The notes under the pieces: generated by a model
Database searches by the model: none
What the model was told of the DNA's origin: nothing
What the model saw: the letters and a program-made list of their open reading frames with translations, nothing else
Origin: Streptomyces sp. NRRL S-31
GTDB taxonomy: Bacteria; Actinomycetota; Actinomycetes; Streptomycetales; Streptomycetaceae
Direction of reading: 5' to 3'
DNA: 33,150 nucleotides
NCBI RefSeq assembly: GCF_000718775.1
Contig: NZ_JOCB01000096.1
Location: 1 to 33,150 of the forward strand
Shown: positions 1,871 through 32,201 of the stretch, one piece after another
Numbering within the stretch: position 1 is the stretch's first letter
Layout of the letters: each line of letters begins with the position of its first letter
Translations under genes and position numbers: made by a program

Positions 1871-2625
1871 GCGAACGCCTCCACCCGCACGCCCGCCGCC
1901 ACCAGCCGCTCGCGCACCCGGCGGGCCAGGCCGACCGCGCCGGGCGTGTCGCCGTGCAGGCACAACGAGCGGGCGCGCACCTCGATCCGCGCGCCGGAGT
2001 GCGCGATCACCGCTCCGGAGCGCGCGAGGCCCACCGAGCGCTCGACGACGGTGTCCGGGTCGGTCACCACGGCCCCCTCCCGGCCGCGCGGCACCAGTGT
2101 GCCCGCGTCGGTGTACGCGCGGTCCGCGAACGCCTCCGGGACGGCCGGCAGCCCCGCCTCGGCGGCCAGCTCCAGCAGCCGTGAGCCGGGCAGGCCCAGG
2201 ACCGGCAGCGCGGAGCCGGCCAGGCGCACGCCCTCGATCACCGCGCCCGCCTGCTCCGCGTCGTGCACGACCCGGTTGTAGAGCGCGCCGTGCGGCTTGA
2301 CGTACGCCACGCGCGCGCCGGCGGCCCGCGCGAACACCTCCAGGGCACCGATCTGGTAGGCCACCTCGGCCGCCAGCTCGGCGGACGGCACGTCCATCGC
2401 GCGCCGCCCGAAACCGGCCAGGTCCCGGTAGGAGACCTGCGCGCCGATCGTCACCCCCCGCTCGGCCGCCCGTTCGCACACCCGGCGCATGGTGGCCGCG
2501 TCGCCCGCGTGGAAGCCGCAGGCCACGTTGGCACTCGTGACGACGGACAGCAGTCGCTCGTCGTCGGTCAGCCGCCAGCGGCCGAAGCCCTCACCGAGGT
2601 CGGCGTTCAGATCGATCGCGGTCAT
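1867..2625 (-). CDS. pxpA: 5-oxoprolinase subunit A (LamB/YcsF family)
   Basis: This 252-aa LamB/YcsF protein is subunit A of the prokaryotic 5-oxoprolinase. The signature IDLNADLGEGFGRW (residues 4-17) is followed by SVVTSANVACGFHAGDAATM (about 27-46), then VSYRDLAGFGRR and VKPHGALYN (about 110-118), all conserved in the family and lining the predicted active-site barrel. Length is standard. The ATG at 2625 gives the canonical N-terminus. It overlaps pxpB by 4 bp, so subunits A and B are translationally coupled. It lies 136 bp downstream of the MFS gene on the same strand, so co-transcription is likely but not proven by spacing alone. Confidence 0.93.
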   Translation of the reverse strand: MTAIDLNADLGEGFGRWRLTDDERLLSVVTSANVACGFHAGDAATMRRVCERAAERGVTIGAQVSYRDLAGFGRRAMDVPSAELAAEVAYQIGALEVFARAAGARVAYVKPHGALYNRVVHDAEQAGAVIEGVRLAGSALPVLGLPGSRLLELAAEAGLPAVPEAFADRAYTDAGTLVPRGREGAVVTDPDTVVERSVGLARSGAVIAHSGARIEVRARSLCLHGDTPGAVGLARRVRERLVAAGVRVEAFA

Positions 2626-2761
2626 GTGTTCTCGTGTCTCCGGTTCCGGGAACGGTCTGCCAGTACAGAAACGGTTTCTCGGAGGCGTCCGGCGAAGGGC
2701 CGGGGCGGGAGCGGCCGGTCCCGCCCGGCGCCGGGACGCCCCCCGGTCCGGTGCGCCCGCG

Positions 2762-4084
2762 TCACCCCAGCTCCCTCCCCCGCGTCTCCGGCAGCCCGAG
2801 CAGGGCCAGCGCGGCGAGACCGTAGCCGGCCGCGCCGAAGACCAGCGCGCCGCCGACGCCCCAGCTGTCCGCGAGGAAGCCCACCAGCGTGGGGAAGACC
2901 GCGCCCACCGCGCGGCCCGTGTTGTACGTGAACCCCTGCCCGGTACCGCGCACCGCCGTCGGGTACAGCTCGCTCAGGTAGGAGCCGAAGCCGCTGAAGA
3001 TGGCCGACATGCAGAAGCCCAGCGGGAGACCGAGCACCAGCAGCAGGGCGTCGGCGCCCTGCGGGATGTCGGCGTACGCCAGGACGCACACCGCCGACAG
3101 CAGCGCGAACAGCCAGATGTTGGCCCGCCGGCCGAGCCGGTCGGTGAGCAGACCGCCGGTCAGGTAGCCGAGGAAGGCGCCGGAGATCAGGAGGGCCAGG
3201 TAGCCCCCGGTGCCGACGACCGACAGACCGCGCTCGGACTTCAGGTACGTCGGCACCCAGGTCGCCAGGGTGTAGTAGCCGCCCTGGACGCCCGTCGACA
3301 GCAGGCTCGCGAAGACCGTGGTGCGCAGCAGGCCCGGGGCGCCGTCCCGGCCCGGGCGGAAGACGGCCGCGAACGAGCCGCGCCGCGGGTCCTGTTCGCG
3401 GGCCGCCGTCGCCGCAGGGGCGTCGTGCACCCGGCGCCGCAGCCACACCACGAGCAGCGCCGGCAGCGCCCCCGTCCAGAACATCACCCGCCAGGCCAGG
3501 TCGTCGCCGGCGAAGGAGAAGACCAGCGTGTAGACGACCGCCGCCAGTCCCCAGCCGACCGCCCAGGAACTCTGCACCGCGCCGAGCGTCCGGCCCCGGT
3601 GGCGCGCGCTCGCGTACTCGGCGACCAGGATCGCGCCGACCGCCCACTCGCCGCCGAAACCGAGCCCCTGGAGGGCGCGGAAGAGCAGCAGCGTCTCGTA
3701 GGTGGGCGCGAAGCCGCAGGCGACGGTGAAGACGGCGTACGTGATCACCGTGATCATCAGGGCCCGGACCCGGCCGACCCGGTCCGCGACCACGCCCGCC
3801 ACGGCGCCGCCGACCGCCGACACCACCAGGGTGACGGTGGTGAACAGGCCGGTCTGGCCGCTGTCGAGGCCGAAGTACGCCGAGAGCGCCACCATGCTCA
3901 GCGGCAGCGTGAAGTAGTCGTAGGAATCCAGGGCATATCCGCCGAAAGCTCCGGCGAACGCCCGTCGGCCGCGCGGGCCGAGGGCGCGCAGCCAGTCGAA
4001 CGCGCCGTCCTCGGCGACCTGTTCACCGCGCGCCCGGCGCGTGTCGGCGGAGGGCGCGGGGCGGGGCGGAGGGGGTGTGCTCAT
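2762..4084 (-). CDS. MFS transporter, sialate/carboxylate:H+ symporter-like, linked to pxpABC
   Basis: This 440-aa protein has about 12 hydrophobic segments and the major-facilitator loop GVVADRVGRVRALM (about residue 98), repeated in the second half as GLLTDRLGRRANIW. The block GFGGEWAVGAILVAEYA followed by RGRTLGAVQSSWAVGWG resembles the metabolite:H+ symporter branch that moves small carboxylates. The ATG at 4084 has GCGAGG 5-6 nt upstream; the frame is open further, but those codons overlap the operator and the divergent gntR. The first gene before pxpABC, it is probably the importer of 5-oxoproline or the compound hydrolysed by PxpABC. The substrate is an inference from context. Its promoter contains the GntR operator candidate in the spacer. 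Confidence 0.85.
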   Translation of the reverse strand: MSTPPPPRPAPSADTRRARGEQVAEDGAFDWLRALGPRGRRAFAGAFGGYALDSYDYFTLPLSMVALSAYFGLDSGQTGLFTTVTLVVSAVGGAVAGVVADRVGRVRALMITVITYAVFTVACGFAPTYETLLLFRALQGLGFGGEWAVGAILVAEYASARHRGRTLGAVQSSWAVGWGLAAVVYTLVFSFAGDDLAWRVMFWTGALPALLVVWLRRRVHDAPAATAAREQDPRRGSFAAVFRPGRDGAPGLLRTTVFASLLSTGVQGGYYTLATWVPTYLKSERGLSVVGTGGYLALLISGAFLGYLTGGLLTDRLGRRANIWLFALLSAVCVLAYADIPQGADALLLVLGLPLGFCMSAIFSGFGSYLSELYPTAVRGTGQGFTYNTGRAVGAVFPTLVGFLADSWGVGGALVFGAAGYGLAALALLGLPETRGRELG

Positions 4085-4137
4085 GGGCACCTCGCAGAAG
4101 GGGGACGGAGGGTGCGGGGGAGTGAGCCGTGCGGAGC

Positions 4138-4167
4138 ACCGTAGGGGATCGTTCAACGATCCTTCAA
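4138..4167 (-). promoter_or_regulatory. Promoter of the MFS-pxpABC operon
   Basis: On the minus strand TTGAAG (4167-4162) and TACGGT (4143-4138) are separated by 18 bp, a housekeeping-type promoter. The predicted start near 4131 leaves a leader of about 47 nt with a ribosome-binding site before the ATG at 4084. The 17-bp palindrome at 4146-4162 fills the spacer, so a bound regulator would block RNA polymerase. Confidence 0.55.
4146..4162. promoter_or_regulatory. Perfect palindromic operator for the GntR/FadR-type regulator
   Basis: GGATCGTT-C-AACGATCC is a perfect 17-bp palindrome. Its core TCGTTCAACGA fits the FadR-subfamily consensus TNGTNNNACNA at every fixed position. It lies between the divergent MFS-pxpABC and gntR genes, inside the spacer of the operon promoter and 13 bp upstream of the gntR -35. 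That the adjacent GntR protein binds it is an inference from position and family consensus. Confidence 0.7.
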
Positions 4168-4211: not shown

Positions 4212-4919
4212 ATGGCAGAGCAGCTGACGGGACTGGCCGGCGACCGCGTCCTCCTGGGCCGTACGAGCACCGCGGAGCGTGTTTCGGACATCCTCAGGAG
4301 CCGCATCTCCGAGGGCTACTTCCCGCCCGGCACCCGGTTGTCGGAGGACGCCATCGGCGGGGCGCTCGGCGTCTCCCGCAACACCCTGCGCGAGGCGTTC
4401 CGGCTGCTCACGCACGAGCGGCTGCTGGTCCACGAACTCAACCGGGGCGTGTTCGTACGGGTCCTGACCGTCGAGGACGTGGAGGACATCCACCGCACGC
4501 GCGCGCTGGTCGAGTGCGCCGTCGTCCGCGGTCTGGGCGAGCCGCCGTACCCGCTCCAGGGGCTCGCCGCGGCGGTCGCCGAGGGGGAGCGCGCGGCCGT
4601 CGACGGTGACTGGAAAGCGCTGGGCACCGCCAACATCCACTTCCACCGGGAGCTGGTCGCCCTCGCCGGGAGCGAGCGCACCGACGAGCTGATGCGCAGC
4701 GTCTTCGCCGAACTGCGGCTCGCCTTCCACGTCGTGGACGACCCGCGCCGGCTGCACGAGCCGTACCTCGCCCGCAACCGTGACATCCTGCGTACCCTTG
4801 AGGCCGGCGACCGGCATGGCGCGGAACGCCGGCTGGCGACCTACCTCGCGGACTCCCTGGAGCGCGTCGTGGAGGTGTACCGGCGGCGGGTGGGGGAGGA
4901 CGCGGCCGACGCGTCTTGA
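4212..4919 (+). CDS. GntR-family regulator, FadR/FCD subfamily, of the pxp operon
   Basis: This 235-aa protein has an N-terminal GntR winged helix (about 18-85, with GTRLSEDAIGGALGVSRNTL and LVHELNRGVFV) and a C-terminal all-helical FCD effector domain (about 88-225). In FCD domains a metal is usually held by Asp and three His; here only FH145 seems kept, with Asn141 at the Asp position and Asn189 and Tyr211 at two His positions, so effector binding may be metal-independent. It is transcribed divergently from MFS-pxpABC across the 4146-4162 palindrome and probably represses that operon, with 5-oxoproline or a related carboxylate as inducer (inference). The ATG at 4212 coincides with the predicted transcription start. 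Confidence 0.85.
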   Translation: MAEQLTGLAGDRVLLGRTSTAERVSDILRSRISEGYFPPGTRLSEDAIGGALGVSRNTLREAFRLLTHERLLVHELNRGVFVRVLTVEDVEDIHRTRALVECAVVRGLGEPPYPLQGLAAAVAEGERAAVDGDWKALGTANIHFHRELVALAGSERTDELMRSVFAELRLAFHVVDDPRRLHEPYLARNRDILRTLEAGDRHGAERRLATYLADSLERVVEVYRRRVGEDAADAS

Positions 4920-4941: not shown

Positions 4942-4982
4942 CTGGGTCCGTTTGGGTCGATGTCAGACCCAGGACCTAGTCT
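4942..4982 (+). promoter_or_regulatory. Promoter with overlapping inverted repeats for the condensin-like operon
   Basis: A TAGTCT -10 (4977-4982) lies 7 nt before the GTG at 4990, with a weak -35 TTGGGT (4952-4957, 19-bp spacer), predicting a leaderless or nearly leaderless transcript. Over it sit CTGGGTC (4942-4948) and TTGGGTC (4952-4958), both able to pair with GACCCAG (4966-4972). The repeats span the -35 to -10 region and look like an operator; the binding protein is unknown. Confidence 0.4.
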
Positions 4983-4989
4983 GTGCACC

Positions 4990-6519
4990 GTGACTTCGCC
5001 TGCATCGACGGACAGCGCTCCGCCCCAGCTCAGCGCGGGACCGCGCCCCGCTCCGGGTCCGGCCGCCGACGAGGGGCTGGCACGCCGGCTGCGCGCGCTC
5101 GCGTGCACCGCGCCGCTGCACGACCTGGACGCGCGCAAGGCCAACCTGGCCGGTGAGTACTCGGTGTACGGGATGGCCGAGGTGGCGCTGGCCGCCATCG
5201 ACCTGGTCACGCTGAACATGGACTTCGACACCGGCGCCGACCACGAGCAGATCGTGGCCCGGCTGGTGCCGCGCATCGCCGCCCAGGCCCCGCACCGGCC
5301 CGCCGCCGAACACGAGCGCGTGGCCCGCTGGGTCCTGGAGAACCTGATCAACGTCGGCAGCGTGGACCGCGGCTTCCGCGCGGTCTACGGCACCTTCGCG
5401 CCGGACGGCACGTACGTCCGGCGCGACTACGACTTCAAGCTGATCGAGGAGGTTCCCGGCCCCGGCGGCACGGTGTACCTGCGGACGACCGACGAGGCGG
5501 TCAACGTCCTGGTCGGCGCCCTCGACACGGACGTCACCAGCGCCCAGATCGCCGCCGAGGTCAAGCTGGAGGTGCTGATCAGCCGCGGCCGGCTCGCCGA
5601 CGCCCAGCTCGCCGCCGAACAGGCCCGCTACCGCACGGTGCAGTACTCCGAGACCCTACGCCGGGCCCTGGACGCCACCCGGCGCAACGTCCGCGCGGTC
5701 GACTGGCTCGGTGCCATCCCCGACATGATCGCCGAGGCCCTGGACCACGTGGCCGAGCGCTACCGCCACGAGAACGCCATCCTCACCAACATCCGCAAGG
5801 CCCGCGACGAGACCGAGGAGCCCGGGCACAAGCGCCGTGCCGCCGAACTGGTCGACATCGTCAAGGACTGCATCCGGCGCCACACCCAGCTCCAGTCCCG
5901 CCTGCTGGAGGCGGGCCCGCTGTTCCGCGCCGAACAGGACCGGCAGGCCTTCGCCACGCCGGCGACCACCTCCGGCATCGACCTCTACGGCCATCTCGTC
6001 GCCCCCGTCCTGCCCTTGCCCCTGGAACAGGCCATCCACGTCACGGACGCCTTCTTCGCGCACGGCACCGGACTGCGCACTCCGGTCTCCGTCCGGGTCG
6101 CGGACCTGGTCGACATACTCCTGACGCCGCCCGTGGAGCGGGAGCACCTGGGCGCGGAGATGCCCGAGCCCGACCTGATCGCGACGCCGGACGACAGCCG
6201 GTTCAGCGAGGAACAGCTCGCCGCGGCGACGGAACTGCTGGACCTGCCCGCCGACGCGCCGCGCCGGCTGTCCGGGCTGCTCGCCGAGGCCCGGCGGAGC
6301 GGTGACCCGGACCTGGCGTACCTGGTGGCGCTGCTGGCCGTCCACGCGGCCAGTCCCGCCGTCGGCACCGCCTACCGCCAGGGCGAGGAGAAGCTGCTGT
6401 TCGCCGTGGACGACGGCACCGAACTGGACGATCCCGAGTTCGGCGGGGCGGACCTCATCGTGGGCACCGCGCTGCTGGACGCGGCCGGGATGGCCGCGGA
6501 CCGGACGGAAGCAGCATGA
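4990..6519 (+). CDS. Kleisin/MukF-like (JetA/MksF-like) subunit of a condensin-like complex
   Basis: This protein of about 509 aa is the first of three genes ending in a MukB/SMC-like ATPase. It lacks any enzyme motif. It has an N-terminal alpha-helical winged-helix-like region (about 25-190), a helical middle with likely coiled coil (about 225-325, RYRHENAILTNIRKARDETEE onward) and a helical C-terminal region after a Pro-rich linker near residue 380. Position and architecture match the kleisin (MukF, MksF, JetA) that bridges the ATPase heads and recruits the MukE-like dimer. I chose the GTG at 4990, 7 nt after a -10 hexamer; an ATG at 4960 would add 10 residues but lies within the promoter repeats. 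Its TGA overlaps a downstream ATG (6516). The kleisin assignment rests on operon logic and fold impression, not an alignment. Confidence 0.7.
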   Translation: MTSPASTDSAPPQLSAGPRPAPGPAADEGLARRLRALACTAPLHDLDARKANLAGEYSVYGMAEVALAAIDLVTLNMDFDTGADHEQIVARLVPRIAAQAPHRPAAEHERVARWVLENLINVGSVDRGFRAVYGTFAPDGTYVRRDYDFKLIEEVPGPGGTVYLRTTDEAVNVLVGALDTDVTSAQIAAEVKLEVLISRGRLADAQLAAEQARYRTVQYSETLRRALDATRRNVRAVDWLGAIPDMIAEALDHVAERYRHENAILTNIRKARDETEEPGHKRRAAELVDIVKDCIRRHTQLQSRLLEAGPLFRAEQDRQAFATPATTSGIDLYGHLVAPVLPLPLEQAIHVTDAFFAHGTGLRTPVSVRVADLVDILLTPPVEREHLGAEMPEPDLIATPDDSRFSEEQLAAATELLDLPADAPRRLSGLLAEARRSGDPDLAYLVALLAVHAASPAVGTAYRQGEEKLLFAVDDGTELDDPEFGGADLIVGTALLDAAGMAADRTEAA

Positions 6520-6554
6520 CGAAGCAAGAGCGCGACAAGGAGCCCAACCCGTGA
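6516..6554 (+). CDS. 12-codon mini-ORF bridging the kleisin-like and MukE-like genes (uncertain)
   Basis: An ATG overlapping the kleisin stop (ATGA, 6516-6519) opens a frame of 12 codons whose TGA overlaps the GTG start of the next gene (GTGA, 6551-6554). It contains the next gene's ribosome-binding site AAGGAG (6537-6542). Ribosomes could relay through it, coupling the two genes; it may equally be accidental. Confidence 0.25.
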   Translation: MTKQERDKEPNP

Positions 6555-7429
6555 CCGAGCACGTCGAGTGGAGCGAGACCGAGCCTGCCGCCGCGCCGGC
6601 GGGCTCCGCCGTCACCCCCGCCGACGCCGCCGACGCGGCGCGGCTCGTCGCCTTCGGGCTCCAGCCGAAACTGGCGCCCGCGCGCGACCAGGAGTACACC
6701 GAGCTGCTGCGCCGCCACCGCGACGACCCGGCGTTCGCCCGGCTCGCGGACGCCGTCGCCGCCGGCCTCGGGCTCGTCGTGCTGGAGGTGTCCCCGCGCG
6801 CGGGGATGGCCGTGACCGCCGCCGAGGACTCCGCGTTCGCCGTCCGCATGGGCGACTACGCGCGGCGCGCCGCCGCCGACTCCGGCGACCGCTTCCTGCA
6901 CGGCCTCGCCCACCTCGCGGCCGCCGCGCTGGCGTTCCCGCGCCCCGAGGACCTCGCCGACGACTCCTACATCGGCCGGGTCACCGTCAACGGCGTCGAC
7001 GCCTTCGTCCGGCAGGCCTGCCGCCGGCTGGAGGAGCGCGCCGAGGAACAGGGCGAGAACACCGACCCGGCGACGGGCGCGCCCGGCCTGGAGTCCGCCT
7101 GGCGGATCTGGGCCCGACGCAGCGCCACCGGCGCCACCAAGGACGCCCGCCGGCCGGCCGCCTCCACCACCGGCATCGTGGCCAAGGCCCTGGCCTTCCT
7201 CACCGAATCCGGCTTCCTGCAACGCACCGGCGACGAGAGCGGCGGCACCTACCGCACCACCGCCCGCTACCAGCTCCAGGTCCGCGACATGGCCGGCGCC
7301 GCCGCCCTGGCCGAACTGCTGGAGCTGGGCGTCGTCCCGGTCACCGACGGCACGGCCAGCCTGCTGCCCGCCGAGGACACCGACGACCTCGACCTGGTGG
7401 CCGACGCCGGGCTGCCGTTCCACTCCTGA
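6551..7429 (+). CDS. MukE-like winged-helix subunit (MksE/JetB-like)
   Basis: This 292-aa protein sits between the kleisin-like and SMC-like genes, the place of MukE, MksE or JetB, small winged-helix proteins that bind kleisin and the DNA near the heads. An Ala-rich N-terminus is followed by a helical domain (about 30-190) and a likely winged helix (about 205-270) in which TGIVAKALAFLTESGFLQ is followed by GTYRTTARYQLQVRDMAG, the expected helix-turn-helix plus beta-wing pattern. The frame is open further upstream; I chose the GTG at 6551 because AAGGAG lies 8 nt before it and the preceding codons are inside the kleisin gene. No catalytic motif is visible. The role is inferred from order and fold pattern. 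Confidence 0.65.
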   Translation: MTEHVEWSETEPAAAPAGSAVTPADAADAARLVAFGLQPKLAPARDQEYTELLRRHRDDPAFARLADAVAAGLGLVVLEVSPRAGMAVTAAEDSAFAVRMGDYARRAAADSGDRFLHGLAHLAAAALAFPRPEDLADDSYIGRVTVNGVDAFVRQACRRLEERAEEQGENTDPATGAPGLESAWRIWARRSATGATKDARRPAASTTGIVAKALAFLTESGFLQRTGDESGGTYRTTARYQLQVRDMAGAAALAELLELGVVPVTDGTASLLPAEDTDDLDLVADAGLPFHS

Positions 7430-7502
7430 CGGCCCCGCCGCCGACGTAGCTCCGCCAGCACCCGAACCACCGCACCTTTCACCAGACTTACGAGAGTCCG
7501 CC

Positions 7503-10500
7503 ATGTACGAGCTGTCCCGGGTCCGCCTCTACTCGATCGGTCCCGCCGGTGCGCGCTACGCCGACACCGTGCTTGACCTGCGGGGGGTCGGCGAGCCCGT
7601 GCCCGACCCGGCGCCCACGCAGGCGGAGTTCTTCGCGGAGGAGCCGTCCGGCCCGCCCCGCCGGCCCGCGCCCGCCGGCGTGCTGTTCCTGGAGAACGGC
7701 GGCGGGAAGTCCGTCCTGCTCAAGCTGATCTTCTCGGTGATGCTGCCGGGCCACCGCAACACCCTCGGCGGTGCCAGCTCCGGCGTGCTGCGCAAGTTCC
7801 TGCTCGCCGACGACTGCGGCCATGTGGCGCTGGAGTGGCAGCACGTGCAGACCGGCGAGTGCGTGGTCGTCGGCAAGGTCAGCGAGTGGCGCGGACGGCA
7901 GGTCTCCAACGACCCGCGGAAGTTCGCCGAAGCCTGGTACTCCTTCCGGCCCGGACCCGGCCTCAGCCTGGACAGCCTGCCCGTCGCCGAGGCCACCGCC
8001 GTACGGCCGTCCGCCGAGGGCACCTCCGGCGCGCACGGCCGCCGCCGCACGATGAAGGGCTTCCGCGACGCCCTCATGGACGCCGGCAAGGCGTACCCGC
8101 ACCTGGAGGTGCACTGGGAGGAGATCCACGACCGGTGGATCGAGCACCTCGGCGAGCTGGGCCTGGACCCCGAACTCTTCCGCTACCAGCGCGAGATGAA
8201 CGCCGACGAGGGTGAGGCGGCCGGTCTCTTCGCGGTCAAGAAGGACTCCGACTTCACCGACCTGCTGCTGCGCGCCGTCACCGACACCCGCGACACCGAC
8301 GGCCTCGCCGACCTCGTCAGCGGCTTCGGCAACAAGCTCGGCCGACGCGCCGAACTGATCGCCGAACGGGACTTCACCGCCGGCTCGGCCGACCTGCTCG
8401 GCCGGATCGTGGAGGCGTCCGGAACGCGCGCCCGCGCGCGGGACGTCCACGCGGGCGCCGAGCGCCGGACCCGCACGCTGGCCCGGCGGCTGTCCGCGCG
8501 GGCCGTGCGGGAACGCGTCCGGGCCGCCGACCTCGCCCAGCGGGTCACGGCCGCCGCGTACGCCGTCACGCACTCCGAGGACGCCCGCGCGCGCAGTGCC
8601 CTGATCGCCGCCGAACTCGCCTACCGGCACGCCTCGCTGGCCCTCGCCGCCGCCGAGAAGTCCGCCGCCGCGCAGAAGCGCGAACTGGCCGACGCCCGCA
8701 CCCTGCACTCCGCCTGGCAGGCCGCCGAGGCCGTGCTGCGGCACCGGGCCGCCGCCGACCGCGTCGCGCGCGTGTCCGCCGCGATCCAGGAGGCCGAACG
8801 GGACGCGGCCCCCGCGCTCGCCGCCCGCGCCCGGGCCGCCGTCGACCTCGTACGGGCCCTGCACACCGCCGCCGCGAGCGCCGAGGCCCTCGCCAACGAG
8901 GAGGAGGAGCGATCCGCCGCCCTCCAGGAGGCCGGCGACTCCGCCTACCGCGACTCCACCTCCGCCGCCACCGACGCGCAGCGGGCCCGCAGCGAGGCCG
9001 GGCACCTGCGCCAGCGGCTCGCCGAGGTCGAGCAGGAGACCGCCGAGGCGGTCCGCGCGGGCTGGCTGGACGACAGCGCCCCGGACGCCGACCCGGCGCG
9101 CGCCGCGCTCGCCGCCAGCGACGCCGAGAAGACCGCCGTGGCCGCCTGGGACGCCGCTCGCGAGGCCGCCCGCAAGGCCACCGAGCACGCGCGCGAGGCG
9201 GCCTCCGCCGAGTCCCGTGCCGAGCTGACGGCGGCCCGCGCGGCGGACGCGGCGACCGCGGCCGAGCGGTCCCACGAGGCCGAGCGGCGCCTCGCCGAGG
9301 CACTGGCCGCCGAGGAGCGGCTGGCGGCGCTGCTGAGCCTGCCGGGCACACCCGGCACCGTGCGCGTGCCCGGACCCCGCAGCGGAGCGGACGACACCGC
9401 CCCGGCACCCGGGCACCACCCCCGCGCCGCCGGCGAGGGCGCGTTCACGCCCGAGGAACTCGACCGCGTCGCCGACGAACTGCGCGAACTCCTCGACAAC
9501 GCCGTCGCCACCGCCGAACGCCACCTGTTCGACCTGCGCACCGCCGCCGCCGACGACGCCCGCATCCTCGGCGCCCTCGGCGACGGCGGACTGCTGCCGC
9601 CCGGCCCGGACGTCCTGGCCACCGTCGAGTTCCTGGGCGAGCACGGCATCCCGGCGCTGCCCGGCTGGCGCTACCTCGCGCAGGCCGTCGACCCGGCCGA
9701 CCACGCGCGGGTGCTCGCCGCCCGCCCCGAGCTGGTCGACGGCGTGATCATCACCGACCCGGACACGCACGCGCGCGCCCGGGAGGCGCTGAGCGACGCC
9801 GCCCTGCTGCCGCGCTCCGCCGTCGCCGTCGGCACGGCCGCCGCCCTGCTCGCCCCGACCCCGGCCGACGCCGCCGCCGGCCCCGGCGACGTCTTCCTCG
9901 TCCCGCCGAACCCGGCCATGCACGACGAGCACGCCGCCGACGAGGAACGCCAGGCACTGCGCACCCGGGCCACCGAGCGCGACGAGGAGATCCGCGCCCT
10001 CGCCGCCCGCCTCGGCAAGGACCGCGAACTGGCCGCGCGGCTCGCCTCCTGGCGTACCGGCTGCCCCGCCGGGCGCCTCACCGAGCTGGCCCGGGCCGCC
10101 GCGGAGGCCCGCGCCTTCGCCGAGGAGACCGAGGCCGAACTCGCCGAGGCGCGGACCGCGCGCGCCGAGGCCGACGAGGTCGCGGCCGAGGCCGCGCATG
10201 TCCGCGACGAGCGGCAGGAGGTCGCGCAGAAGGCCCGCCGGGCCGCCGACGCCCTGGCCGGCCTCGCCTTCCGCCTGCGCGAGCGCGCCGGCTGGCAGGT
10301 GAAACTGCGCGAACTCGCCGACGAGGCCGCCGAGTCCGAGGCCCGCGCGCAGACCTGCCTGGAACGCGCCCGCGCCGCCGACGAGGACCGCCGCGCCGCC
10401 CAGCGCGCCGCCGACGACGCCCGCCGGACCGCACGAGCCCTGCGCGCCGAGCGGTCCGAGATCGCCGGCGCCCCCGACGACGTACCCGTCGAGGACACGG

Positions 10501-12158
10501 ACGCCCCGCAGACCTCCCTGCCCGCCCTCCGCGAGGCCTACCGGGCCGCCTCGCAGGTGTACGAGAAGGTCGGCGTCGGCGCCGACCTGCGCGCCGAGCA
10601 GGCCCGCGCGGAGAGCGACGAGAGCGCCGCCCGGGCCGAACTGGACCGGCTCAGCAACAAGGTCCGCACCCGCGCCGAGCAGCTGCTCCAGTCACCCGAC
10701 GGCTCGGACGGCCCCTCCCGGCAGGCCGCCGCCGCGCGCGCGGAGGAACTGGTGCAACTGCTGGAGACCCGGATGTCCACCGCGAGCGAGCAGCTCGGCC
10801 GGCTGCGTGGCGAGGCGGAACGGCACGCGCCCGAGGACGGTGAGGCCCACACCGAGCTGCCCGAGGACCTCCTCCCGCGCGACGCCGAGCACGCCCAGGC
10901 ACTGCTGCGCACCGCCACCACCGAACTCGCCGCCCGCACCGAGGCGCTGGCCGAGGCCCGCGAGGCCCACGCGGAGCTGCTGGACGCCCACCGCGCCGCC
11001 GAGGACGCGGCCGGCGGCTTCGACGAGATCGCCGCAATGCTCCGCGACCTGCTGCGGGAACAGGCGCCCGAGGAGGAGCAGGAGGAGCCGGAGCCGTACC
11101 CGGGCACCCTGGAGGAGGCCCGGCACTCCGCCGCCGAGGCCCGCCGCTCGCTGCGCGGCTGCGCCGCCGACCTGTCCGCCGCCGAGGCGGCCGTGCGGGA
11201 GGCGAGCGACGTCCTTGTCCGGCACGCCAACTCCACGCGGTACGAGCAGGTCCGCACCCCCGCCCGGCAGCAGATCCGGGAACTGCCCGCCGCCGCGCTG
11301 CCCGAGCACGCCCAGAAGTGGGCGGACGCGTTCGCGCCCCGGCTGCGTGTGCTGACGGACGAGCTGGCCCAGCTGGAGCGCAACCGCGACTCGATCGTGG
11401 ACCGGCTGCGCGGTCTCGTGGAGTCGGCCCTCGCCACGCTCCGGTCCGCGCAGCGGCTCTCCCGGCTGCCGGAGGGGCTCGGCGAGTGGTCCGGGCAGGA
11501 GTTCCTGCGCATCCGCTTCGAGGAGCCCGACCACGCCACGCTCGTCGAACGGCTCGGCGAGGTCATCGACGAGGCCACGCGCGCGGCCGTCAAGAAGAAC
11601 TCCGATCTGCGCCGCGACGGCATGTCCCTGCTGCTGCGGGGCGTCGCGGCGGCCCTCCAGCCGAAGGGCGTGGCCGTCGAGATCCTCAAGCCCGACGCCG
11701 TGCTGCGCGCCGAGCGCGTTCCCGTCGGCCAGATGGGCGACGTGTTCTCCGGCGGCCAGCTGCTCACCGCCGCTATCGCCCTGTACTGCACGATGGCCGC
11801 GCTGCGGTCCAACGACCGCGGCCGGGACAAGCACCGGCACGCCGGCACGCTCTTCCTGGACAACCCGATCGGCCGGGCCAACGCCACCTATCTGCTGGAG
11901 CTCCAGCGGGCCGTGTCCGACGCCCTGGGCGTGCAGCTGCTGTACACCACCGGCCTGTTCGACACGACCGCCCTCGCGGAGTTCCCGCTGGTCATCCGGT
12001 TGCGCAACGACGCGGACCTCAGGGCGGGCCTGAAGTACATCAGCGTGGAGGAACACCTGCGGCCGGGCCTGCCCCAGCAGCCACAGGCGGGGGAGACGGT
12101 GCGCAGCGAGATCACGGCGACCCGGATGTTCAGGAAGCCGGCACCGACCACCAGCTGA
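7503..12158 (+). CDS. SMC/MukB-like ATPase of a condensin-like complex, 1551 aa
   Basis: The protein has the SMC plan. An N-terminal head with Walker A LENGGGKS (about 63-70) leads into long Ala/Glu/Arg-rich coiled coil (about 310-640), a globular mid-domain in the hinge position (about 648-865), returning coiled coil (about 870-1390), and a C-terminal head with the ABC signature FSGGQ (1415-1419) and Walker B LFLDNP (1450-1455). Length is close to MukB (1486 aa). The residue after the Walker B Asp1453 is Asn1454, where SMC, MukB and Rad50 proteins have the catalytic Glu. It is the third gene of the operon, 73 bp after the MukE-like gene. Such complexes load on DNA and extrude loops; Wadjet members use an added nuclease to cut plasmids. 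No nuclease gene is adjacent here, so the biological role is open. Confidence 0.85.
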   Translation: MYELSRVRLYSIGPAGARYADTVLDLRGVGEPVPDPAPTQAEFFAEEPSGPPRRPAPAGVLFLENGGGKSVLLKLIFSVMLPGHRNTLGGASSGVLRKFLLADDCGHVALEWQHVQTGECVVVGKVSEWRGRQVSNDPRKFAEAWYSFRPGPGLSLDSLPVAEATAVRPSAEGTSGAHGRRRTMKGFRDALMDAGKAYPHLEVHWEEIHDRWIEHLGELGLDPELFRYQREMNADEGEAAGLFAVKKDSDFTDLLLRAVTDTRDTDGLADLVSGFGNKLGRRAELIAERDFTAGSADLLGRIVEASGTRARARDVHAGAERRTRTLARRLSARAVRERVRAADLAQRVTAAAYAVTHSEDARARSALIAAELAYRHASLALAAAEKSAAAQKRELADARTLHSAWQAAEAVLRHRAAADRVARVSAAIQEAERDAAPALAARARAAVDLVRALHTAAASAEALANEEEERSAALQEAGDSAYRDSTSAATDAQRARSEAGHLRQRLAEVEQETAEAVRAGWLDDSAPDADPARAALAASDAEKTAVAAWDAAREAARKATEHAREAASAESRAELTAARAADAATAAERSHEAERRLAEALAAEERLAALLSLPGTPGTVRVPGPRSGADDTAPAPGHHPRAAGEGAFTPEELDRVADELRELLDNAVATAERHLFDLRTAAADDARILGALGDGGLLPPGPDVLATVEFLGEHGIPALPGWRYLAQAVDPADHARVLAARPELVDGVIITDPDTHARAREALSDAALLPRSAVAVGTAAALLAPTPADAAAGPGDVFLVPPNPAMHDEHAADEERQALRTRATERDEEIRALAARLGKDRELAARLASWRTGCPAGRLTELARAAAEARAFAEETEAELAEARTARAEADEVAAEAAHVRDERQEVAQKARRAADALAGLAFRLRERAGWQVKLRELADEAAESEARAQTCLERARAADEDRRAAQRAADDARRTARALRAERSEIAGAPDDVPVEDTDAPQTSLPALREAYRAASQVYEKVGVGADLRAEQARAESDESAARAELDRLSNKVRTRAEQLLQSPDGSDGPSRQAAAARAEELVQLLETRMSTASEQLGRLRGEAERHAPEDGEAHTELPEDLLPRDAEHAQALLRTATTELAARTEALAEAREAHAELLDAHRAAEDAAGGFDEIAAMLRDLLREQAPEEEQEEPEPYPGTLEEARHSAAEARRSLRGCAADLSAAEAAVREASDVLVRHANSTRYEQVRTPARQQIRELPAAALPEHAQKWADAFAPRLRVLTDELAQLERNRDSIVDRLRGLVESALATLRSAQRLSRLPEGLGEWSGQEFLRIRFEEPDHATLVERLGEVIDEATRAAVKKNSDLRRDGMSLLLRGVAAALQPKGVAVEILKPDAVLRAERVPVGQMGDVFSGGQLLTAAIALYCTMAALRSNDRGRDKHRHAGTLFLDNPIGRANATYLLELQRAVSDALGVQLLYTTGLFDTTALAEFPLVIRLRNDADLRAGLKYISVEEHLRPGLPQQPQAGETVRSEITATRMFRKPAPTTS

Positions 12159-12234: not shown

Positions 12235-13071
12235 TCAGAAGCCGTACCCCATGCGGCGGGACAGCTCGGTGCCCGCCGCGACCGTCCGCTCGGCCACCTT
12301 CGGCAGCCGGTCGGCGTCGAGCTGGTACACCGGGCCCGACACGCTGATCGCCGCGATCACCTCGCCGTCGTGCGCGCGCACCGGCGCCGCGACGGCAGCG
12401 AGGCCCGGCTCAAGCTCCTCGACGGTGACGCCGTACCCCTGCCGGACCACGGTCTCCAGTTCGGCGCGCAGCACGGCGGCACCGGTGACCGTACGGTCGG
12501 TGAACCGCGGCAGCGGCCGTGCCAGCAGGCCCTCGCGCAGGGGCGGCGACAGGTGCGCGAGGAGCACCTTGCCGCTGGAGGTGGCGTGCAGCGGGGTGCG
12601 TCTGCCCAGCCAGTTCTGCGCGGTCACGGACGCCGTGCCACGGGCCTGCATGATGTTGACCGCCGCGTCCTCGTCGAGCACGGCGAGGTTGACCGTCTCG
12701 CCCAGTTCGTCGGCGACCTCCCGGCAGACCGGGACGGCCTCCTGGGAGATCTCCAGGCGCACTGCCGCCGCTCCCGCCAGGCGCAGTACGCCGGCTCCCA
12801 GGTAGTACTTCCCGCGGTCCTTGGCCTGGGCCACCAGGCCGCGGTTCTCCAGCACGCCGAGCAGCCGGAACGCCGTGGACTTGTGGACGTCCAGCTCCTG
12901 TGCGATCTCGGTGACGCCCGCCTCGCCGTGCCGGGCGAGGATCTCCAGCACGCTCACCGCGCGGTCCACCGACTGCACCGCACTCGCCGCCGCGCGACCG
13001 GTCTGCCGCTCCGGAGTACCGGGGCTCCCGGTCTGCTCCGGACGGTCGGACTGCTGCTGCGTGCGGGGCAT
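12235..13071 (-). CDS. IclR-family transcriptional regulator
   Basis: A 278-aa cytoplasmic regulator. The N-terminal winged helix (about 32-95) contains AVSVLEILARHGEAGVTEIAQELDVHKSTAFRLLGVLENRGLV, the classic IclR helix-turn-helix; the C-terminal GAF-like effector domain (about 110-275) includes the family's small-molecule pocket segments LHATSSGKVLLAHL and AAISVSGP. A 25-residue Gln/Pro/Gly-rich tail precedes the DNA-binding domain. I chose the ATG at 13071, preceded by GAGAG; an ATG at 13089 lacks a ribosome-binding site. An inverted repeat 85-110 bp upstream may be its operator. Neighbours do not reveal a regulon: it converges with the SMC-like gene and no catabolic gene is adjacent on its strand. 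Confidence 0.88.
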   Translation of the reverse strand: MPRTQQQSDRPEQTGSPGTPERQTGRAAASAVQSVDRAVSVLEILARHGEAGVTEIAQELDVHKSTAFRLLGVLENRGLVAQAKDRGKYYLGAGVLRLAGAAAVRLEISQEAVPVCREVADELGETVNLAVLDEDAAVNIMQARGTASVTAQNWLGRRTPLHATSSGKVLLAHLSPPLREGLLARPLPRFTDRTVTGAAVLRAELETVVRQGYGVTVEELEPGLAAVAAPVRAHDGEVIAAISVSGPVYQLDADRLPKVAERTVAAGTELSRRMGYGF

Positions 13072-13156
13072 GGGCTCTACTCTCACCATGTGCCGGGCCG
13101 GTCGGGTCGCGACCGCGGCAAGCCCTCGACGCGATGATCCTCACGCCCGGACCTTG

Positions 13157-13277: not shown

Positions 13278-13772
13278 TCAGGAGTGCGAGAGCTGCCCCG
13301 CCCCGCCGCGCCGGCGTATCCGCTCCTGCTCCCGCAGGGCCGCCCGGTCCTGACGGCGGCGCGCCCGCCGCTCCCGGCGCAGGGCCCGGGCCGTGCTGCT
13401 CGGCTCGGAGACCACGCCGTACCGCTGGTTCCACACCTGGCGGGTCACCCAGACGTCGACCACGGCCCACGTGGCCACGACCGTGCTCGCCACACCGCTG
13501 ATCACCATCGGCAGTGCCAGCCAGGAGCCGGCCAGCGTGCACAGGAACGCCGCCATCGCCTGGACCAGCGTCAACGCCATGACGATGACGGCCCGCACCG
13601 CCGCGGCCCGCACCGGATCGGGCAGCGGATGCCGGCGCGCGGGCTCCTCGATCCACAACGCCCGCGCGTCCCGCCGCTGTTCGTCACCGCCGAACTCCCC
13701 GCCGTACTGCGGCGCCGGAACGCCGCGATGCGGCTCCATCCGGCCCCGTCCCGTCTGCGAGCGCTCCGTCAT
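13278..13772 (-). CDS. Small membrane protein with two transmembrane helices, function unknown
   Basis: A 164-aa protein with a hydrophilic N-terminus (about 1-55), two adjacent hydrophobic segments (VRAVIVMALTLVQAMAAFLC, about 62-81, and WLALPMVISGVASTVVATWAVV, about 86-107) and a strongly basic Arg-rich C-terminal tail (about 125-160, RALRRERRARRRQDR) likely to sit in the cytoplasm. The ATG at 13772 has GGGAG 4 nt upstream; the open frame extends to 13865 but that part lacks a ribosome-binding site. No family is recognised beyond the general pattern of Streptomyces two-helix membrane proteins. It is divergent from the conservon. Confidence 0.7.
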   Translation of the reverse strand: MTERSQTGRGRMEPHRGVPAPQYGGEFGGDEQRRDARALWIEEPARRHPLPDPVRAAAVRAVIVMALTLVQAMAAFLCTLAGSWLALPMVISGVASTVVATWAVVDVWVTRQVWNQRYGVVSEPSSTARALRRERRARRRQDRAALREQERIRRRGGAGQLSHS

Positions 13773-13849
13773 GCTTCTCCCGGACGCCCCGCGTCGCTCC
13801 GTCGAGCCCATCACCGTGTCACTCCCCACCGCCGGCAGACCGCTCGCCC

Positions 13850-13867
13850 CGGTGTCCGAAGACACCG
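13850..13867 (-). repeat. UUCG-tetraloop hairpin upstream of the membrane protein gene
   Basis: Read on the minus strand, CGGTGTC-TTCG-GACACCG is a 7-bp perfect stem closed by C(UUCG)G, the most stable RNA tetraloop type. It lies 77 nt upstream of the ATG at 13772, so it may sit in that gene's 5' leader. On the plus strand the loop would be CGAA. Confidence 0.5.
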
Positions 13868-14230: not shown

Positions 14231-17041
14231 ATGCGCTTTCGCGGGAAGTCGATCCGCCGGAAGATCGTGGCGCTGCTTCTCGTGCCGCTGGTGTCCCTGA
14301 CCGCAGTCTGGGGCCTCGTCACGGTGCTCTCGGGCCGCGAAGTCGCCCAGCTCTTCCGGGTGTCCGACGTGATCGAGGACGTCGGCTACCCCGCCGAGGA
14401 CACCGTCCGCGTCCTCCAGCAGGAACGCCGCCAGACGCTCGTCTACCTCGCCGACCCGCGGGCCTCAGACGCCCTCGCCGCGCTGCACCGCACCCGCGCC
14501 GCGACCGACCGGGCGATCACCGTGATCCGAGAGAGCGCCCGGGACGGGGACGTCCGCTCCGAGATGGACCCGGACGACGGCGAACACCTCACCGCCGTCC
14601 TGGACGCCTTCGACGGCCTGGACTCTCTGCGCCGCAGCGTCGAGGAAGGCACCGTCACCCGCGCCCAGGCACTCGACCTCTACAACCGCCTCGTGGACCC
14701 CTGCTACGCCCTGCTCGCCGCACTCGACGGCATCGACGACGTCGAGGCAGACAAGCAGGCCCGCGCCCTGGTCAACGTCACCCGCGCCCGCGAGCTGCTC
14801 TCCCGCGAGGACGCCCTGCTCGGCTCCTCCCTCGTCGTCGGCCGGCTCACCCGGGACGAGAGCCGTGACATCTCCGACCTCGTCGCCCAGCGCACCCTGC
14901 TGTACGACATCAGCCTCCCACTGCTGCCCCCCGCGGAGCGCGACCGCTACGAACGCTTCTGGAAGAACGCCACCACCGCCCCGCTGCGCGTGGCCGAACA
15001 GACCGTCATCGCCGCGGACTCCTCCTCCGCCCCGCCTGACGTCACCGCGAAGAGCTGGGACACCACCGCGGCGACCGTCCTGGACGAGCTCGGCGACCTG
15101 GACGACCAGGCGGGCGACCGCTTCCAGGACCGCTTGCGCCCCGTGGCCGTGGGCGTCATCGTCCAGGCGGCCGCCACCGGCCTCCTCGGCCTGGTGGCGC
15201 TCCTCGTCTCCGTCGTCCTCTCCGTCCGGGTCGGCCGCTCCCTCATCCGCGACCTGCGCCAGCTCCGCCTGGAGGCACACGAGGCATCCGGTGTCCGGCT
15301 GCCCAGCGTGATGCGCCGGCTGTCCGCGGGCGAACAGGTCGACGTGGAGACCGAGGTGCCGCGCCTGGAGTACGACAAGAACGAGATCGGCGACGTCGGA
15401 CAGGCCCTCAACACCCTCCAGCGCGCCGCCGTCGAGGCCGCCGTCAAACAGGCCGAACTGCGGGCCGGTGTCTCCGAGGTCTTCGTCAACCTCGCCCGCC
15501 GCAGCCAGGTGCTGCTGCACAAGCAGCTCACCCTGCTCGACAGCATGGAACGCCGGACCGAGGACAGCGACGAACTCGCCGACCTGTTCCGCCTGGACCA
15601 CCTCACCACCCGGATGCGCCGGCACGCCGAGGGCCTGGTGATCCTCTCCGGTGCCGCGCCCTCCCGGCAGTGGCGCCGCCCCGTACAGCTGATGGACGTC
15701 GTCCGTGCCGCCGTCGCCGAGGTCGAGGACTACGAGCGCATCGAGGTCCGGCGCCTGCCGCGGGTCGCCGTCACCGGGCCCGCCGTCGCCGACCTCACCC
15801 ATCTCGTGGCCGAACTCCTGGAGAACGCCACGGTCTTCTCGCCCCCGCACACCGCCGTGCAGGTCATCGGCGAGCGGGTCGCCAACGGCTTCACCCTGGA
15901 GATCCACGACCGGGGCCTGGGCATGACGGCCGAAGCGCTCCTGGACGCCAATCTGCGCCTCGCCGAGACTCCCGAGTTCGAACTCTCCGACACCGACCGG
16001 CTGGGCTTGTTCGTGGTCAGCCGCCTCGCCCAGCGCCAGAACGTCCGGGTCTCCCTCCAGCCGTCGCCCTACGGCGGCACCACCGCCGTGGTGTTCATCC
16101 CCGACGCGCTGCTGACCGACGACGTCCCCGACACCAACGGCGTCGGCTTCCGGCTCGACCGGCCCCGCCCGGCGCAGGGCGCGGAACAGGCCCTGGGACC
16201 TGCCGCCGGACGGGCCCCGGCCCCCCTTCAGCTGCCCGGCCTGCCGACCTCCCTGCTGGACGGCCCGGTCGAGCTGGAGGCGCCCGTCGACCTCGACGCG
16301 CTGGACGACTTCCCCGGCGCCCTCCAGGACGAGGACAGCGAGCGCGGCGGTCTCTTCCGCCGCCGCCGGCCCCGGTCCGGCGGCGGCGAGCCCCAGGCCG
16401 ACCGGCAGCCGGGCGAGGCGGGCGGCGGACCCGGACCCGTGCCGCTGCCCCGGCGGCAGACGCCCAAGCTGGTCAGCTCACACGGCAAGCCCGTCACCGG
16501 CCAGCGGCCCCGCCGCGGCACTCCGGCGGCCCCGGGACCCTCCGCCGCACCGCAGGGCGGCGACCCGGGCGGACCGGCCCCGCTGCCCGCCCGCCGCCGC
16601 GGTACCGCCTCCCGGCGCCCCACCGGGCTCACCGACGGGGCCGAGGACCGCGCCGCGACCCCCGCCGAGAGCGACCGCGAGACACCCGGAGCCCCGGCCC
16701 TGCCCCGGCGCACCCGGACCAAGGCGCCGGGCACCGGGGCACCGGCGGACACGGCACCGCACCACGGCCCGTCGGCACCCGCGGGTGACCGGGCCCCGGA
16801 GCCGGGCGCCGGACCGCTGCCCCGGCGCGTACGCCAGGCCAGCCTGGCCCCCCAGCTCCGGCAGACCACCGAACGGCGCGCCGAGCGGGCGGACCAGTTG
16901 GCCGACCGCGATGCCGAGGAGGTGCGCAGCCGGATGGCCTCGCTCCAGCGCGGCTGGCAGCGCGGCCGGGAGGAGAACGCCGCGGGCGACCAGGCCCGGA
17001 ACGGCACAGCACAAGGAACGACTAAGGGGGACGGTCGATGA
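14231..17041 (+). CDS. cvnA: Conservon sensor kinase-like protein CvnA (NIT domain, HATPase)
   Basis: A 936-aa membrane sensor. It has a short cytoplasmic start with TM1 (about 11-33), an extracellular nitrate/nitrite-sensing-type all-helical NIT domain (about 45-290), TM2 (about 305-333), a HAMP-like segment, and a DHp-like region with His430 in LLHKQLTLLDSMERR. An HATPase_c domain follows, with N-box ELLENATVFSPP (Asn532) and G1 box DRGLGM (560-565), then a Pro/Arg-rich disordered tail from about 640 containing repeated LPRR motifs. CvnA proteins act with CvnB, CvnC and the GTPase CvnD in a membrane complex likened to eukaryotic G-protein-coupled systems. GGGGGAGG precedes the ATG, and the stop overlaps cvnB (ATGA). 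Confidence 0.92.
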   Translation: MRFRGKSIRRKIVALLLVPLVSLTAVWGLVTVLSGREVAQLFRVSDVIEDVGYPAEDTVRVLQQERRQTLVYLADPRASDALAALHRTRAATDRAITVIRESARDGDVRSEMDPDDGEHLTAVLDAFDGLDSLRRSVEEGTVTRAQALDLYNRLVDPCYALLAALDGIDDVEADKQARALVNVTRARELLSREDALLGSSLVVGRLTRDESRDISDLVAQRTLLYDISLPLLPPAERDRYERFWKNATTAPLRVAEQTVIAADSSSAPPDVTAKSWDTTAATVLDELGDLDDQAGDRFQDRLRPVAVGVIVQAAATGLLGLVALLVSVVLSVRVGRSLIRDLRQLRLEAHEASGVRLPSVMRRLSAGEQVDVETEVPRLEYDKNEIGDVGQALNTLQRAAVEAAVKQAELRAGVSEVFVNLARRSQVLLHKQLTLLDSMERRTEDSDELADLFRLDHLTTRMRRHAEGLVILSGAAPSRQWRRPVQLMDVVRAAVAEVEDYERIEVRRLPRVAVTGPAVADLTHLVAELLENATVFSPPHTAVQVIGERVANGFTLEIHDRGLGMTAEALLDANLRLAETPEFELSDTDRLGLFVVSRLAQRQNVRVSLQPSPYGGTTAVVFIPDALLTDDVPDTNGVGFRLDRPRPAQGAEQALGPAAGRAPAPLQLPGLPTSLLDGPVELEAPVDLDALDDFPGALQDEDSERGGLFRRRRPRSGGGEPQADRQPGEAGGGPGPVPLPRRQTPKLVSSHGKPVTGQRPRRGTPAAPGPSAAPQGGDPGGPAPLPARRRGTASRRPTGLTDGAEDRAATPAESDRETPGAPALPRRTRTKAPGTGAPADTAPHHGPSAPAGDRAPEPGAGPLPRRVRQASLAPQLRQTTERRAERADQLADRDAEEVRSRMASLQRGWQRGREENAAGDQARNGTAQGTTKGDGR

Positions 17042-17472
17042 CCGCACCGAAGGCCACCGGCCACACGACGACGGGCAACGGCGAGCTGAACTGGCTCCTG
17101 GACGAACTCGTCGACCGGGTCGCCAGCATCCGCAAGGCCGTCATCCTGTCCGGCGACGGACTGGCGACCGGCGTGTCCAAGGATCTGACCAGGGAGGACA
17201 GCGAGCATCTGGCCGCCGTGGCGTCCGGCTTCCACAGCCTCGCCAAGGGCGTCGGACGCCACTTCGACGCGGGCGGAGTCCGGCAGACCGTGGTCGAGCT
17301 GGACGGTGCCTTCCTCTTCGTCACCGCCGCCGGCGACGGCAGCTGCCTCGCGGTCCTCTCGGACGCCGACTCCGACGTCGGACAGGTCGCCTACGAGATG
17401 ACGCTCCTGGTCAAGCGGGTCGGCGCGCATCTGGGCACCGCCCCGCGCACCGATCTGCCCGCAGGCGGGTAG
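17038..17472 (+). CDS. cvnB: Conservon roadblock/LC7 protein CvnB
   Basis: A 144-aa roadblock/LC7 protein, the CvnB component, which in the model is a GTPase-activating or scaffolding partner of CvnD similar to MglB. The fold is visible as LNWLLDELVDRVASIRKAVILSGDGLATGVS (about 17-47), HLAAVASGFHSLAKGVGRHF and a C-terminal DSDVGQVAYEMTLLVKRVGAHL helix. Its ATG overlaps the cvnA stop by 4 bp, indicating coupling. Length is typical for CvnB. Confidence 0.93.
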   Translation: MTAPKATGHTTTGNGELNWLLDELVDRVASIRKAVILSGDGLATGVSKDLTREDSEHLAAVASGFHSLAKGVGRHFDAGGVRQTVVELDGAFLFVTAAGDGSCLAVLSDADSDVGQVAYEMTLLVKRVGAHLGTAPRTDLPAGG

Positions 17473-17481
17473 TGGGATGAC

Positions 17482-30530: not shown

Positions 30531-32201
30531 CTACTCGCCGGACAGCACCGCCCGGGCCGCGCCGCGCGCCTCCTCGGCACTGTCCGCCGCACGCGCCGCC
30601 GCCGCGGCCCGCTCACACTGCGCCAGCGTGTACTTCGCCAGCGTCGCGCGGACATACGGAATCGACGCCGAACCCATGGACAGGGAGGTGACACCCAGAC
30701 CGGTCAGCACACACGCCAGCAGCGGATCGGACGCGGCCTCGCCACACACCCCGCAGCTCTTGCCCTCGGCCTTCGCCGCCTCGGCCGACAGCGCCACCAG
30801 GTCGAGCAGCGCCGGCTGCCACGGGTCCTGGAGCCGCGACACCGCACCCACCTGCCGGTCCGCCGCGAACGTGTACTGCGCGAGGTCATTGGTCCCCAGC
30901 GACAGGAACTCGACCTCCTGGAGGATCGACCGCGCCCGCAGCGCCGCCGACGGGATCTCCACCATCGCGCCGAACTTCGCCCGCAGCCCGGCCTCCCGGC
31001 AGGCTTCCGCGAACGCCTTGGCGTCCGTGCGGTCCGCCACCATGGGCGCCATCACCTCAAGGTAGACGGGCAGTCCCTCGGCGGCCTTCGCCAGCGCCGT
31101 CAGCTGGGTGCGCAGCACCTCCGGGTGGTCGAGCAGCGTCCGCAGGCCCCGCACGCCCAGCGCGGGGTTCGGCTCGTCCGCCGGCGTCAGGAAGTCCAGC
31201 GGCTTGTCCGCGCCCGCGTCCAGCACCCGCACGACCACACGGCTCTCGGGGAACGCCTCCAGCACCCGCCGGTAGGCCTCCACCTGCTTCTCCTCGGAAG
31301 GAGCGCTCTTGCTGTCGTCCAGGAACAGGAACTCGGTACGGAACAGACCGACACCCTCGGCACCCGCCTCGACCGCGGCCGGCACGTCCGCCGGACCGCC
31401 GACGTTGGCCAGCAGCGGCACCTTGTGCCCGTCCGCGGTGGCACCGGGACCGGTGGAAGCGGCCAGCGCGGCCCTGCGCTCGGCAGCCGCGGCCTCCAGC
31501 TGCGCCTTCTTCTCCGCGCTCGGCTGCACGAAGACATCACCGGTGCTGCCGTCCACGGCCACGACGATGCCCTCGGCCAGCTCGCCGGCGCCCGGCAGCG
31601 CCACGACGGCCGGCACGCCCAGCGCCCGCGCCAGAATGGCGCTGTGGCTGGTCGGGCCGCCCTCCTCGGTCACGAACCCGAGCACCAGCGACGGGTCGAG
31701 CAGCGCCGTGTCGGCGGGAGCAAGGTCCCGGGCCACGAGCACGTACGGCTGGTCGCTGTCCGGAACACCCGGCATCGGCACACCCAGCAGCCGGGCGACG
31801 ATACGGTTGCGCACGTCGTCGAGGTCGGCCACGCGCCCGGCGAGGTACTCACCGGCGCCGGCCAGCAGCTCCCGGTAGGCCGCGAAGGCGTCGTACACGG
31901 CGCGCTCGGCGGTGCTGCCGACGGCGATCCGCCGGTCCACGTCCGCCATCAGCTCCGGGTCCTGGGCCATCATGGCCTGCGCTTCCAGGACGGCCTGGGC
32001 CTCGCCGCCCGCCAGATTGCCGCGCGCCATCAGGTCGGCGGCCACGGCGTCCACGGCCTGGCGGGCACGTCCCTGCTCCCGCTCGGCGTCCTCGGCGGGG
32101 ATCTGCTTGGCCGGCGGCTCCAGCACCGCCGTGCCCATGTGCCGAACCTCGCCGATCGCCACGCCATGGCTCACGCCGACGCCTCGCAGCGTTGTCTCCA
32201 T
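30531..32201 (-). CDS. ptsI: Phosphoenolpyruvate-protein phosphotransferase, PTS enzyme I
   Basis: A 556-aa enzyme I. It takes phosphate from phosphoenolpyruvate and passes it to HPr, driving sugar uptake through the PTS; it acts in the cytosol as a dimer. The active-site motif GGPTSHSAILARALGVPAV has His186, the phosphorylated residue. The C-terminal PEP-binding barrel has GVGLFRTEFLF, ANVGGPADVPAAVEAGAEG, EIPSAALRA, LGTNDLAQYTFAADR and the catalytic Cys in CGVCGEAASDPLL. The ATG at 32201 is preceded by a GGTGAG-type site. It lies 78 bp after crr on the same strand, the usual Streptomyces crr-ptsI order, and is likely controlled by DasR from the upstream dre site. Confidence 0.97.
   Translation of the reverse strand: METTLRGVGVSHGVAIGEVRHMGTAVLEPPAKQIPAEDAEREQGRARQAVDAVAADLMARGNLAGGEAQAVLEAQAMMAQDPELMADVDRRIAVGSTAERAVYDAFAAYRELLAGAGEYLAGRVADLDDVRNRIVARLLGVPMPGVPDSDQPYVLVARDLAPADTALLDPSLVLGFVTEEGGPTSHSAILARALGVPAVVALPGAGELAEGIVVAVDGSTGDVFVQPSAEKKAQLEAAAAERRAALAASTGPGATADGHKVPLLANVGGPADVPAAVEAGAEGVGLFRTEFLFLDDSKSAPSEEKQVEAYRRVLEAFPESRVVVRVLDAGADKPLDFLTPADEPNPALGVRGLRTLLDHPEVLRTQLTALAKAAEGLPVYLEVMAPMVADRTDAKAFAEACREAGLRAKFGAMVEIPSAALRARSILQEVEFLSLGTNDLAQYTFAADRQVGAVSRLQDPWQPALLDLVALSAEAAKAEGKSCGVCGEAASDPLLACVLTGLGVTSLSMGSASIPYVRATLAKYTLAQCERAAAAARAADSAEEARGAARAVLSGE

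Follow-up and report, generated by a model that had tools for sequence, protein, structure and literature searches.

A Wadjet type III-like JetABC operon without a recognisable JetD nuclease is conserved across Streptomyces and may serve as an accessory condensin

The genes of MukBEF stand in the order kleisin-KITE-SMC. In the accessible part of a review on Wadjet, JetABC is described as the sensor and JetD as the effector, the sensing step is proposed to be loop extrusion on small circles, and the evolutionary relationships are called unresolved (PMC10586767). The same text holds that MksBEF of Pseudomonas aeruginosa, which has a chromosome role, likely arose from JetABCD by loss of JetD (PMC10586767), and in Corynebacterium glutamicum the kleisin ties the nuclease to the complex (PMC10123090, accessible part). 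The accessible text of a 2026 paper on Streptomyces SMC credits chromosome folding in the genus to SMC and treats mycobacterial Mks as a condensin homologue, with no Streptomyces counterpart noted there (PMC13121528). Among the sources searched for Wadjet, JetABC, or MksB in Streptomyces (mostly non-subscription, and some available only as extracts), none reported a type III operon devoid of JetD in this genus.

We analysed a stretch of 33,150 nucleotides from Streptomyces sp. NRRL S-31 (hereafter the window), which has a base composition of 74% G+C and belongs to contig C96 of an 8.7-Mb genome assembled in 322 contigs. Three genes lie in one direction on the forward strand, namely the type III-like kleisin JetA (4990..6519, 509 aa), the probable winged-helix KITE subunit JetB (6551..7429, 292 aa), and the SMC-type ATPase JetC (7503..12158, 1551 aa, ATG start). 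The GTG starts of JetA and JetB were chosen among candidates; the ORF list has instead an ATG at 4960 for JetA (519 aa) and a start at 6302 for JetB (375 aa, running into JetA). With the chosen starts, the intergenic gaps are 31 and 73 bases. The third-position G+C of the operon genes (0.94-0.97) is what is expected of real genes at 74% G+C.

By sequence, the operon is closest to Wadjet type III, with which it shares the JetA and JetC matches, the A-B-C order, and the JetC motifs. JetA matched the PADLOC model JetA3 (PDLC00567) with 625 bits over residues 24-507 and JetC matched JetC3 (PDLC00588) with 1403 bits; these were the only PADLOC models matched by the three proteins at E up to 1, with no type I or type II Jet model among them. 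JetC is also homologous along its length to its counterparts in JetD-bearing operons. JetB, which had neither a PADLOC match nor a significant family match, is the least certain part of the system. A JetB homologue from a JetD-bearing operon does match JetB3 (E 7.6e-4), the fold matches of JetB to JetB and MukE are weak, and it is probably the KITE subunit. Although the order kleisin-KITE-SMC is shared with MukBEF and MukF-length chains of MukBEF entries rank first for the JetA model, none of the three proteins matched Pfam MukF, MukE, or MukB at E up to 1, so that membership in MukFEB was rejected; any likeness of JetA to MukF would be one of fold and not of sequence. PDB sequence searches with JetA and JetC found nothing. 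The operon also resembles MksBEF of P. aeruginosa, for which a chromosome role is described (PMC10586767, accessible part), in being a kleisin-KITE-SMC set without a nuclease, but it belongs to another Wadjet lineage.

A gene for a JetD-like TOPRIM nuclease adjoining the operon was not found in the profile map of the locus, and a search of the whole genome with PF09983 found nothing. The latter null is weak because PF09983 also misses a clear actinobacterial JetD3 which the PADLOC JetD3 model PDLC00594 scores at 366 bits; PF09983 was dropped as a JetD detector for this reason, and PDLC00594 and purpose-built alignments were used. PDLC00594, which does detect JetD in other Streptomyces genomes, found nothing in the genome of the window at E up to 1; a 3-row JetD alignment was equally negative at that threshold, as was an 11-row alignment with the limit relaxed to E 10 and 127 candidates scored, both of the alignment searches being run without a positive control of their own. 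Alignment models of a similar kind do detect JetD adjoining JetC in other loci. The initial annotation, which was made from the sequence of the window, had described a co-directional three-gene operon of condensin type in MukF-MukE-MukB order with no adjoining nuclease gene. The three genes, their direction, the kleisin-KITE-SMC plan, and the lack of a nuclease at the locus are confirmed, with no JetD detected elsewhere in the genome by the latter three models, but the sequence assigns the operon to Wadjet type III (JetABC) and not to MukFEB or MksBEF.

The operon belongs to the core genome of its genus, in contrast to the patchy accessory spread of Wadjet type III. JetA, on which the genus-wide counts rest, was detected in 147 of the 150 Streptomyces genomes searched (that of the window included), with a best match at least 80% identical in 146 of them and a weak match (E 1.6e-67) in the remaining one, G121. 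The three negative assemblies are 78%, 82%, and 98% complete, the last being in 1140 contigs. Across Streptomycetaceae, JetA was present in 61/61 sampled genomes and 17/17 genera; since the only genome sampled of one genus (G158) has just a divergent JetD-bearing copy (L086), the core-type gene is present in 60/61 genomes and 16/17 genera. A class-wide survey, in which three candidates per genome were scored, gave JetA matches in 61 of 394 genomes (40 Streptomyces, 19 Frankiaceae, one of family f46, and one marginal). Frankiaceae were patchy (19/35 genomes), and 20/60 genomes of family f46 matched.

Profile maps of JetA, JetB, JetC, and JetD were read for 161 loci of all families (61 + 80 + 20), and counts were restricted to loci with a complete JetC and at least 1.2 kb downstream, which left out 3 duplicates and 29 loci in which JetC was partial or the available sequence too short. 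The 100 distinct complete Streptomycetaceae loci comprised 90 of core type, all without JetD, and 10 divergent ones with JetD. Eight of the counted Frankiaceae loci lacked JetD and three had it; in f46 the corresponding numbers were 15 and 3, the 15 including one distant copy (L208, JetA 185 bits). The accessory JetABCD copies of Streptomycetaceae are homologous to the operon of the window in all three proteins but have JetD directly after JetC. Their JetA is 24-56% identical to that of the window in L031-L034, L083, L084, L086, and L091; JetA of L209 scores 206 bits and that of L211 405 bits. PDLC00594 matched in 21/150 Streptomyces genomes, with more than 150 bits in 11 and no more than 32 bits, over a portion of the model, in the other 10; clear JetD is thus limited to 11/150 genomes, all of which fall within the 13 that have more than one JetA match. 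In the eight of these 11 genomes read for the position of JetD (G022, G090, and G094 left out), it adjoins a divergent JetA copy (L031-L034, L091, L209-L211). Among relatives, a linked nuclease occurs in the divergent operons and in the f46 locus L206, but none of the 90 Streptomycetaceae loci of core type with a complete JetC has one. Ten of the 18 f46 loci read (L079, L193, L194, L196, L197, L198, L200, L201, L205, and L206) have gapA downstream of JetC, at a distance of about 0.2 to 5.4 kb, and pgk is seen as well in nine of these ten; in L206 a JetD gene stands between the JetC and gapA genes, a position at which its relatives lack it.

Some loci are visibly altered. Only a cut JetA is left in L048 (genome G012), the JetB/JetC frames are broken in L085 and L158, about 5 kb separate JetB from JetC in L106, and other loci have a fragmented or incomplete JetC. 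Given such truncated or broken copies, the operon is not strictly essential.

The surroundings of the operon were compared among 55 named Streptomyces loci, each 21 kb or longer and with both flanks, and the JetABC locus was largely syntenic. A GntR/FCD regulator (Pfam GntR and FCD; 4212..4919, forward strand) lies upstream of JetA in 46/55 loci and is possibly a regulator of the operon. Downstream, a 195-aa ORF (13278..13865, reverse strand) is found in 42/55 and a nitrate/nitrite-sensing histidine kinase (14231..17041), followed by roadblock and DUF742 genes, in 40/55. The IclR regulator gene (12235..13089, reverse strand) adjoins the operon in only 6/55 loci and was ruled out as a component of the system. 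Further upstream, beyond the GntR gene, a 551-aa ORF (2489-4144) without a significant family match is present in 36/55 loci. The kinase, roadblock, and DUF742 genes form a conservon (14231-17877) which, judged by its neighbourhood, is probably the cvnA4 locus. The cvnA4 gene is SCO1402 of Streptomyces coelicolor, and in the accessible text of one paper sco1402-1403 is given as an EMSA-confirmed ScbR target (PMC4595836); the S. coelicolor counterpart of the operon may accordingly sit around SCO1404-SCO1407, the gene numbers being deduced from that position.

The expectation in the initial annotation of a conserved core feature of Streptomyces in place of a mobile island was borne out by this synteny and by the distribution of JetA. 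Its picture of unrelated regulators on both sides holds for the window, but only the GntR gene is a conserved neighbour; the proposed proximity to ptsI and an rRNA operon is correct for ptsI (30531..32201, reverse strand), whereas the rRNA operon is unconfirmed since the window gave no Rfam match and no tRNA. Across 32 matching assemblies made up of a single contig (sizes partly rounded), the median distance of the locus to the nearer chromosome end was 16% of the length, with 27 loci within 20% of an end and four within 10%. According to the accessible part of a published study, Wadjet hits in Streptomyces show an enrichment towards the ends, in the outermost 10% (PMC10482375).

Our preferred reading, to which we give a probability of roughly 0.6, is that the operon is a Wadjet type III JetABC which has lost JetD, has been fixed in the core genome of Streptomycetaceae, and acts on the chromosome as a loop-extruding accessory condensin that does not cut. 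JetABC would still load onto DNA and extrude loops through ATP hydrolysis, its substrate would now be the host chromosome, and it would work beside SMC-ScpAB, whose presence is taken from the literature; loss of JetD with the motor kept would parallel MksBEF. That nearly all Streptomyces genomes sampled keep a Wadjet III motor without its nuclease suggests a defence system converted into a housekeeping chromosome-organising machine. Alternatively, JetABC could still defend against plasmids or phages through a nuclease of another kind, or one encoded elsewhere, that escapes the JetD models. JetABC is after all the sensor part of Wadjet (PMC10586767, accessible part), and the failure of PF09983 on actinobacterial JetD3 means that family models can miss real effectors. 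We nevertheless consider a hidden effector unlikely: the actinobacterial models that find divergent JetD elsewhere find none in this genome, no neighbour gene scanned matched a nuclease family (several gave no match whatsoever), and the operon is nearly universal at largely one syntenic site, unlike the patchy accessory JetABCD copies.

JetC carries ENGGGKS (residues 64-70; 7692..7712, forward strand), SGGQ (residues 1416-1419; 11748..11759, forward strand), and LFLDNP (residues 1450-1455; 11850..11867, forward strand), as located by alignment and a motif survey, which we take to be Walker A, the ABC signature, and Walker B, respectively. Many SMC proteins have a Glu where the Walker B of JetC has N; this N is common to JetD-bearing relatives. 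Of the 136 loci without a JetD flag (duplicates counted), 120 have all three motifs, and most of the 16 loci with incomplete motifs are truncated or in pieces. A variable Ala/Pro-rich stretch lies at about residues 625-650 of JetC, ahead of the probable hinge region, and is where L049 and L050 have about 1.1 kb extra. An intact motor would also suit a non-cutting restraint of plasmids or phages, in which circular DNA is compacted or held and thereby silenced or lost, and Wadjet itself is proposed to sense small circles by extruding loops on them (PMC10586767, accessible part); we regard such restraint as rather improbable.

For the preferred reading, in which JetD was lost, the trees bear on how often its state has changed. 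In the main tree of concatenated JetABC (34 rows), the Streptomycetaceae copies form a clade with 100/100 support and those of Frankiaceae another (100/100), the latter being joined at 97/97 to a clade in which most copies have JetD, and well-supported branches force at least three changes of JetD state. The AU test rejected descent of all JetD-less copies from one origin (p 2.9e-35) but not a shared origin of the Streptomycetaceae and Frankiaceae copies (p 0.065); the tree software cautions about long branches and uneven composition. Neither a JetA-only tree nor a quick 41-row tree resolved the placement of the Frankiaceae clade. The JetA-only tree labelled L089 as JetD-less though its contig ends inside JetC, and L089 was excluded from later trees and counts. 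In the quick 41-row tree, L206 nests within the f46 JetD-less clade, so that JetD was either kept there with several losses around it or regained. As far as these sequences go, L206 and the divergent JetD operons would fit a nuclease once present and then lost, or at L206 possibly regained. Trees by themselves cannot tell loss from gain, and we infer loss because JetD occurs in outer branches, as it does in Wadjet systems at large.

Selection on all three genes is purifying. Pairwise dN/dS against ten relatives, obtained with a purpose-written counting script, was 0.05-0.14 for JetA, 0.15-0.27 for JetB, and 0.10-0.28 for JetC. Decay of a Wadjet remnant, which the missing JetD and the few relatives with broken operons (L048, L085, and L158) might suggest, is hardly credible against this range of 0.05-0.28, the 90 distinct Streptomycetaceae loci whose JetC frame is complete, and a core-type JetA in 16/17 genera sampled.

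A broader proposal, which we hold tentatively and at slightly under even odds, is that Streptomyces would have a second SMC complex for organising the chromosome, one that is nearly universal in the genus and descends from an anti-plasmid weapon whose nuclease was lost, and that such a conversion also occurred independently in other actinobacteria (Frankiaceae and f46). For defence surveys, JetABC without JetD should not be counted as Wadjet. Because the JetD-less form is nearly universal and some of the same genomes also carry JetD-bearing accessory copies, both states can be compared in one cell, and Streptomyces is a tractable genus for comparing them. The finding bears on how SMC complexes pass between defence and chromosome maintenance, and if JetABC acts on the chromosome, studies of chromosome folding in Streptomyces may have missed a core player.
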